IMG/VR virus record: IMGVR_UViG_3300047089_000122
Location: 1-27,165 of that record
From: a virus
DNA: 27,165 nucleotides
Reading direction: 5' to 3' (one strand)
Positions within the stretch are counted from its first letter, which is position 1. Each line of letters begins with the position of its first letter. The translations under genes and the position numbers were made by a program. Positions 21,116 through 22,083 of this stretch are shown piece by piece. The notes beneath the pieces were generated by a model, which did no database searches, was not told the origin of the DNA, and was given only the letters and a program-made list of their open reading frames with translations.

Positions 21116-21165
21116 TGGTCGGGGCGAGAGGATTTGAACCTCCGACATCCTGCTCCCAAAGCAGG
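21116..21165 (-). other. 3' half of tRNA-Pro(UGG), attachment site (attP candidate)
   Basis: Read on the minus strand this 50-base stretch is the anticodon arm (CCTGC-TTTGGGA-GCAGG, anticodon TGG), variable region, T arm (GGAGG-TTCAAAT-CCTCT), acceptor strand CGCCCCG, A and CCA of tRNA-Pro. The sequence further upstream does not contain the matching acceptor strand or D arm, so no full tRNA is present. The integrase begins 80 bases away. Integrases of this class recombine at such tRNA 3' ends and rebuild the gene. Late genes on both sides favour attP rather than a prophage end. Confidence 0.8.
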
Positions 21166-21246
21166 GCCACCACTACGTAAGCGATTCGATGACAGAGACT
21201 TGGCCTCATACGAATGGGGGCTAGTCTCGACATTATACCACTGCCT

Positions 21247-22083
21247 ATGATGACGCGCATGGATTTTCACGAATTGAGCCAGTCCTATTTAGACAATCAT
21301 CTGCGACAGCAAGTGACATATCGGGCCTACTGCCGGATCCACCGTCAATTCTTTTCCAGCTGGACCGAGCATCCGACCCGTCCTGAAATCAAAGCCTGGC
21401 ATGTCACGCAGGCCGCACACGCCGCCCATGCGAACAAAGGATTAGGATACCTCAAGGCGCTGTACAATTGGGCGATGAACGATGGCACCTGGACGGCGGC
21501 CAATCCCGCACTCGGCATTCGACGCCACAAAACCTACAGCCGCGAGAGGGTGATGGATCACCGAGAACTCGCCGCTCTCCTCAATGGCCTGCCGATGCTC
21601 AATCAAAAATATCAGGCCTGGTTCACCTGTCGACTGTTGGTCCCCTGCCGGATTAAAGAACTGTGTCAGATGCGCCGTGATGACGTGAGCCCCTATGGGA
21701 AGTGGACGAAGCGCACGACCAAGAATGGCCGACCTCACACGGTCCACGTTCCGCAGCAAGCGTTGGAGCGATTGCAGTCGCTCCCCGATGAAGGGCCCTA
21801 TTTCTTCATGGGACAATATGGACATCCATTGACGGAAGGGGCTGTGCGAAAAATCTGGACTCGATGGCGGGCGGAATTGGGATTACAGGATCTGTGGCTC
21901 TTAGATTATCGGCGCACACTCGCTACCTATCTCTACCGCGTCATGAAGGTGGATGATCTCACGGCTAAGGCGATCCTCAATCACTACGACAGCCGGCCGG
22001 TGGCGATCTATACACGGCTCGACTATGAATACCTCGCCACCATCATTCAGGGTTATGCGGATTGGATCATGAAACGTCTCTAA
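21247..22083 (+). CDS. int: Tyrosine recombinase (integrase)
   Basis: 278 aa from ATG 21247; ATGs at 21214, 21250 and 21259 are alternatives and none has a clear ribosome binding site. N-terminal SAM-like core-binding domain (residues ~5-95), then catalytic domain. Arg135 (VPCRIKELC), Lys159 (TTKNGRPH), Arg222 (LLDYRRTLAT), His246 (ILNHYD) and Tyr255 (VAIYTR) give the active set. Box II normally reads HxxR; here Leu219 is in place of His. It would integrate the phage at the host tRNA-Pro gene next to the att site at 21116-21165. Confidence 0.92.
   Translation: MMTRMDFHELSQSYLDNHLRQQVTYRAYCRIHRQFFSSWTEHPTRPEIKAWHVTQAAHAAHANKGLGYLKALYNWAMNDGTWTAANPALGIRRHKTYSRERVMDHRELAALLNGLPMLNQKYQAWFTCRLLVPCRIKELCQMRRDDVSPYGKWTKRTTKNGRPHTVHVPQQALERLQSLPDEGPYFFMGQYGHPLTEGAVRKIWTRWRAELGLQDLWLLDYRRTLATYLYRVMKVDDLTAKAILNHYDSRPVAIYTRLDYEYLATIIQGYADWIMKRL

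Follow-up and report, generated by a model that had tools for sequence, protein, structure and literature searches.

Integrases reportedly act at three places within tRNA genes, a scheme credited to Williams in 2002. The mechanism of integration into tRNA genes in general is established knowledge, as set out in the available text of several papers (PMC8371274, PMC10865867, PMC8138268, PMC2951348, PMC11849493, PMC4111918). In mycobacteriophage Boilgate, a core carrying the 3' half of a tRNA lies just upstream of the integrase gene, and the complete tRNA is rebuilt at attL (available text of PMC10865867). The locus that we analyzed lies in an IMG/VR record of 27,165 bases, the whole of which is called the window here, and has the same layout. 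It differs from Boilgate, as described in that text, by a host of another phylum, by a core of 50 bp without mismatch (against 43 bp with five mismatches), and by the arm-type sites, which are reported for Boilgate, whereas none was recognized near the site in the window, where the few, short direct repeats do not stand out. Phage Fionnbharth, the example of tRNA-dependent lysogeny, also uses a tyrosine integrase at a tRNA gene, but with a core of only some 10 bp, its integration destroys the tRNA, for which the phage supplies a copy of its own (available text of PMC10865867). On the contrary, the 50 bp studied here would rebuild the tRNA and the window contains no tRNA gene; the combination of a short core with a phage-borne tRNA of the same isotype is thus absent from the window, which is a partial genome.

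Our main reading, to which we give a probability of roughly 0.87, is that these 50 bp are the attP site of a temperate tailed phage of Nitrospiraceae, whose integrase, devoid of arm-binding domain, would recombine this core with the anticodon arm of the host tRNA-Pro(UGG). The features on which the argument draws are the following.

3 to 7874, minus strand: head and packaging module, with connector, capsid, protease, head morphogenesis, portal, TerL and TerS genes (Pfam/PHROG matches and relatives)
20,410 to 20,691, minus strand: small divergent ORF, candidate repressor (weak match to the transcriptional repressors of phrog_2328, E 0.0071)
20,729 to 20,762, no strand: palindrome with 14-nt arms, candidate operator (sequence palindrome)
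20,757 to 20,786, plus strand: promoter-like site TTGACA-18-TATGCT (10 of 12, consensus match only)
20,831 to 21,058, plus strand: small ORF of 75 aa between the promoter-like site and attP (relative in the same place in contig L362, 43% over 67 aa, E 1e-10)
21,116 to 21,165, minus strand: putative attP core, 3' half of tRNA-Pro(UGG) (identical to Nitrospira tRNA-Pro; single copy; without 5' half)
21,214 to 22,083, plus strand: tyrosine integrase, 289 aa, without arm-binding domain (PF00589 E 6.4e-13; phrog_1 E 1.4e-31; AF2 model; Foldseek)
22,109 to 22,438, plus strand: predicted small lipoprotein, downstream of the integrase (lipobox read by eye; no Pfam or PHROG match)
22,937 to 27,163, minus strand: tail-side late genes (relatives in contig L356)

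The first-pass annotation had described 50 bases equal to tRNA-Pro(UGG) from the anticodon arm to CCA, and positions 21,116 to 21,165 (minus strand) indeed match the last 50 nt of this tRNA at every base, i.e., the anticodon stem, the loop TTTGGGA, the variable region, the T-arm, the acceptor strand and CCA. The matching 5' half is indeed absent: ARAGORN detects no tRNA gene over the 27,165 bases, and on the 5' side the identity ends after 50 bases, where the window has a C and the tRNA a G. The 50-mer is present in a single copy even when up to three mismatches are allowed (0 in 100 shuffles). A complete tRNA-Pro gene or a second att copy with host genes beyond it, either of which would argue against this reading, was sought in the window and is absent. 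The integrase gene does adjoin the core, but the gap, previously given as 80 bases, is 48 bp to the first possible start (21,214) or 84 bp to the ATG at 21,250. An attP of this type is recognized by a tRNA 3' half that matches a host tRNA exactly and adjoins an integrase gene, as is seen here, and when attP and attB were joined by script, a complete tRNA-Pro was obtained in attL and none in attP or attR. By this way, the integrase encoded 48 bp from the core would recombine attP with the anticodon arm of the host tRNA-Pro(UGG), rebuilding at attL a complete tRNA from the host 5' part and the phage 3' half, while the host's own 3' half would be displaced to attR, where the integrase gene would also end up.

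The virion genes lie on both sides of this site, as first annotated: the head genes occupy 3 to 7874, and p23269 and p27151, on the other side, have counterparts among the tail-side genes of a related phage contig (L356, from a Nitrospira bin), whose relatives of p23269, p24421 and p27151 show 86%, 51% (over 53 aa) and 29% identity, respectively. None of p23269, p24421, p25201 and p27151 has a Pfam or PHROG match where scanned. IMG/VR classes the record as linear, and we found no end repeat (no terminal direct repeat of at least 12 bases, and ends that do not join), so it is not a closed circle. Both contig ends fall within late genes; no tape-measure gene was recognized in the window, whereas Brevundimonas phage Polewnik, with 49% identity in the capsid protein, carries tail genes including the tape measure beyond the connector; and the longer related contigs and phages measure about 41–62 kb. 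For these reasons we consider the window a partial genome, probably about half to two thirds of the whole. The proposal of a circular or unintegrated genome with an intact attP therefore loses its circular part (the record is linear and incomplete), and the 50 bp are best read as an intact attP of a phage genome that is unintegrated and only partly recovered. A junction internal to two or more phage copies integrated head to tail would have the same sequence as attP, but we consider it quite unlikely, because no host gene was recognized in the window and tandem lysogens are usually rare.

The other side of the reaction, the bacterial target, was searched for with the 50-mer, as the first-pass annotation had suggested. 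At least 117 stretches of bacterial contigs carry it exactly, all with the tRNA-Pro 5' half directly upstream except L024 and L100, which are cut by contig ends, and ARAGORN identifies a complete tRNA-Pro(TGG) in 115 of the 117 stretches listed. In viral contigs, the 50-mer was found once, in L002, inside a complete tRNA-Pro. In 8 of the 117 stretches listed (L005, L029, L034, L060, L073, L078, L086 and L118), the T-arm is nearly repeated in inverted orientation (CGAGAGGAT-TGAA) at most 80 bp after tRNA-Pro, which might be a terminator or the relic of an earlier att site.

Nitrospira are major nitrite oxidizers, and to our knowledge few Nitrospira phages have been described. The first-pass annotation left the host as any bacterium with this tRNA-Pro end, and the tRNA alone would allow such a wide choice: among the 117 stretches listed, 88 bear Nitrospira/Nitrospirota-type names, 2 are titled Nitrosospira and 27 bear names of other phyla, and the exact 50-mer is also found in Desulfobacterota, Alphaproteobacteria and others. 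Related terminases and capsids, too, occur in many phages. The integrase narrows this choice. Relatives at E 1e-10 or better are present in 28 of 175 Nitrospiraceae genomes, the top two scoring 262 and 188 bits, whereas in samples of 291, 289 and 274 genomes (854 in total) from three classes that include other 50-mer carriers the best scores are 44.7, 68.9 and 71.4 bits. Among 12 such carriers themselves, 3 give integrase matches, with a best E of 2.3e-8. In the tree, the window integrase groups with the two top-scoring Nitrospiraceae relatives, those of G132 (L204) and G031 (L205), with support 98/99, and with the former alone with support 100/100. Moreover, DNA matches of the window were found to G159, a Nitrospira bin that shares an identical tRNA-Pro contig with L094 (Nitrospira sp. 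337R_metabinner_41) and contains two phage contigs with TerL, TerS and p23269 at 86%, 73% and 86% identity to the window. As G159 has its own tRNA-Pro complete, with tRNA-Arg close behind, and no integrase was seen in its phage contigs, this host link rests on binning. In these two contigs (L355 and L356), the direction of early versus late genes is opposite to that of the window. With the integrase score gap, the DNA matches to G159 and the integrated relatives beside the same tRNA half, a host outside the Nitrospiraceae is very unlikely, even with a tRNA end conserved across many phyla; integrase and terminase point to Nitrospiraceae, and most likely to Nitrospira. Short matches between the window and Nitrospiraceae genomes were also considered as CRISPR spacers and discarded, the 31 loci examined (L244–L274) not lying in repeat arrays.

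Integrated relatives were found in two of these genomes. In G031, a complete tRNA-Pro and an exact half lie 45,189 bp apart, the integrase gene adjoining the half, with tRNA-Arg(TCT) beyond the half and rdgB/RNase PH genes beyond the complete copy. Between them we found matches to head-closure, lytic tail and helicase proteins, as well as terminase-like and portal-like ORFs recognized by eye. The prophage ends sharing the half that the first-pass annotation proposed to look for are therefore found here, in a 45.2-kb prophage with a complete tRNA at one end and the displaced half at the other. In G132 (contig C74), which shows the half end only, an integrase 48% identical to that of the window (266 aa) is followed by a tRNA half identical at 48 of 48 bases and by a host NtrC-type regulator gene, while the integrase is flanked on its opposite side by a tail-collar-type protein; an NtrC-type regulator gene also lies beyond the half copy of G011. 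Apart from the integrase and a weak HNH match, no relative of the window proteins was found in the G031 and G132 stretches, so that the integrase cassette is shared across different phages. What is observed is thus the anatomy of the site, the exact match to the tRNA and the presence, in Nitrospiraceae genomes, of related integrases next to the displaced half, at attR; the genomes searched contained no integrated copy of the phage of the window.

The same tRNA gene is a recurrent site of insertion. Allowing up to two mismatches, a 45-mer is present in 135 of 175 Nitrospiraceae genomes and in two copies in 9, of which 7 carry a complete tRNA and a half, both copies being complete in G089 and G131. 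Half copies beginning within the anticodon stem are those of the window and of the elements of G031, G132, G109 (CGG), G011, G148, G134, G005, G111 and G156. The G134 half adjoins an integrase with an arm-binding domain (PF13356), so unlike integrases share the tRNA-Pro site. The elements of G011, G134 and G148 span about 9.5–11 kb, and the bases preceding the half copy are alike in G011, G148, G005, G111 and G156, which suggests a second element family. The loci of these other elements at the same tRNA-Pro are L358, L359, L360, L383, L388 and L391. A filamentous-phage element (G139:C8, L395:19644-19679, and L396) starts directly after the tRNA-Pro(UGG) 5' half, itself after rdgB and RNase PH; its integrase is 29% identical to that of the window, and it encodes a Zot-type assembly protein (PF05707, E 6e-27), a G2P-type replication protein (E 3.5e-14) and a coat protein below the cut-off. 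The contig ends inside this element, and a search of the G139 assembly gave no complete tRNA-Pro(UGG).

These elements bear on the position of the strand exchange, which would take place in or beside the anticodon loop. An exchange further along, within the T-arm or at the 3' end of the tRNA, would agree with the window sequence, which fixes only the 5' limit of the core. In the G031 prophage, the complete tRNA-Pro (L235:10765-10841) has an A for G at the base of the T-stem, converting G-U into A-U, and differs by this one base from the half copy. Taken as a crossover marker, this base would have placed the crossover on its 5' side; we dropped it, since the same variant occurs in the complete tRNAs of two other genomes (G071 and G125), which leaves the direction of exchange unreadable from it. 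Nevertheless, we hold exchange outside the anticodon arm to be unlikely: all the half copies aligned start within the anticodon stem, the 5' half preceding the related integrase in G139 ends inside the anticodon loop, and the anticodon stem-loop forms a 5-bp dyad around 7 bp, an arrangement described for such sites (available text of PMC8371274). For the set of elements, the exchange appears bracketed at the anticodon loop, and the window integrase would presumably cut there as well.

The integrase itself has the arm-less build of the simple tyrosine recombinases. Its ORF is bounded upstream by a TGA at 21,190, its Pfam matches are a catalytic domain and a weak core-binding one, and its AF2 model (mean pLDDT 93.2, 27 sequences) starts with the core-binding helices and contains core-binding and catalytic domains only; the best Foldseek matches are to residues 75–356 of lambda Int, i.e., without its N-terminal domain. 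The Brujita integrase (PDB 5vfz), for which Lunt and Hatfull 2016 is said to be the reference, matches weakly in structure (rank 17, with an rmsd of 15.2 for the entire chain), the likeness being one of domain content. It is likewise a phage integrase made of core-binding and catalytic domains only (available text of PMC8138268), unlike which the window integrase has a Leu at the first catalytic His and an att site inside a Nitrospiraceae tRNA-Pro. The catalytic residues of the window integrase read R-K-(L)-R-H-Y, five of six being kept. In relatives, the first His position is mostly His, with L in L204 and L216, N in L215, and Y in L223 and L231; no close relative was found in viral contigs. 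This Leu could be taken as the sign of a decayed or non-functional att remnant, which we judge extremely unlikely, given the open integrase frame, the five other catalytic residues, the exact core and the G132 relative, which has the same Leu and sits at a chromosomal half copy. The window integrase is predicted to be active.

The cassette around attP has a counterpart in contig L362, where a relative of the 75-aa ORF (43%), a half tRNA-Pro(CGG) matching a Nitrospiraceae tRNA-Pro(CGG) at 49 of 50 bases, an integrase (30%) and a lipoprotein-like ORF are arranged and oriented as in the window, the far side being occupied by an HNH gene and other small ORFs; the tRNA-Pro contig of this bin matches L071 (Nitrospira sp. 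S2bin.15). A lipoprotein-like ORF also follows the integrase in L237, and in the window it is followed on the plus strand by p22383 (phrog_16260, unknown function). The 75-aa ORF had been read by eye as a ribbon-helix-helix protein, an identity that was abandoned (no Pfam or PHROG match, poor AF2 model); for the ORF at 20,410 to 20,691, the Pfam match is unrelated and below the cut-off. At 16,693 to 17,958, the window encodes a Gp3-like protein (PF18897, E 3.4e-39) resembling recombination directionality factors; phiC31 gp3 serves a serine integrase, and this phage has a tyrosine integrase.

The promoter-like site at 20,757 to 20,786 overlaps the palindrome, lies upstream of the 75-aa ORF and reads through it and attP to the integrase. 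It is the sole site of at least 9 of 12 on the plus strand between 20,400 and 23,000, where about one is expected by chance. A looser script found no promoter-like site between core and integrase in the window, L362 and G132, and a weak one in G031; a stricter scan of the L362 region gave none. As attP stands between the integrase and its only strong promoter-like site, integration should separate the two, and the loss of this site would prevent an integrase that lacks arm sites from running the reaction backwards. The G031 prophage has a small ORF and a promoter-like site at attL and the integrase at attR, as this idea predicts, but no sequence similarity between the small ORFs was detected. 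A broader scenario, which we put forward tentatively and consider doubtful, is that of an arm-less integrase lineage of Nitrospira elements, having lost the first catalytic His in one branch, locked after integration by the position of attP between promoter and integrase rather than by arm sites and an excisionase, and whose related members would act at one anticodon loop, that of tRNA-Pro, for tailed phages as well as for a filamentous phage.

Compared with known systems, this promoter arrangement recalls that of KplE1 IntS, where att lies upstream of the integrase gene, so that integration alters what precedes it, and where the integrase promoter overlaps attL (available text of PMC2951348); in the window, the promoter-like site lies beyond attP and the integrase would go to the end bearing the displaced half. 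Nitrospira-infecting soil viruses, some of them temperate, are likewise assigned to this host group by prediction; no integration site is described for them in the available text, where the words integrase and tRNA are absent (PMC11849493). Our literature search, including nitrifier lysogeny, Nitrospira phages and inoviruses, found no paper on Nitrospira tRNA-Pro prophages in the text available. Through the attP site, an uncultured phage is assigned to its host at the level of sequence; the site also designates tRNA-Pro(UGG) as a site repeatedly used by integrating elements in Nitrospiraceae and, paired with its integrase, might be tried for integration into these bacteria as a tool. The system is of a known, ordinary style, here tied to Nitrospiraceae, an unusual host.
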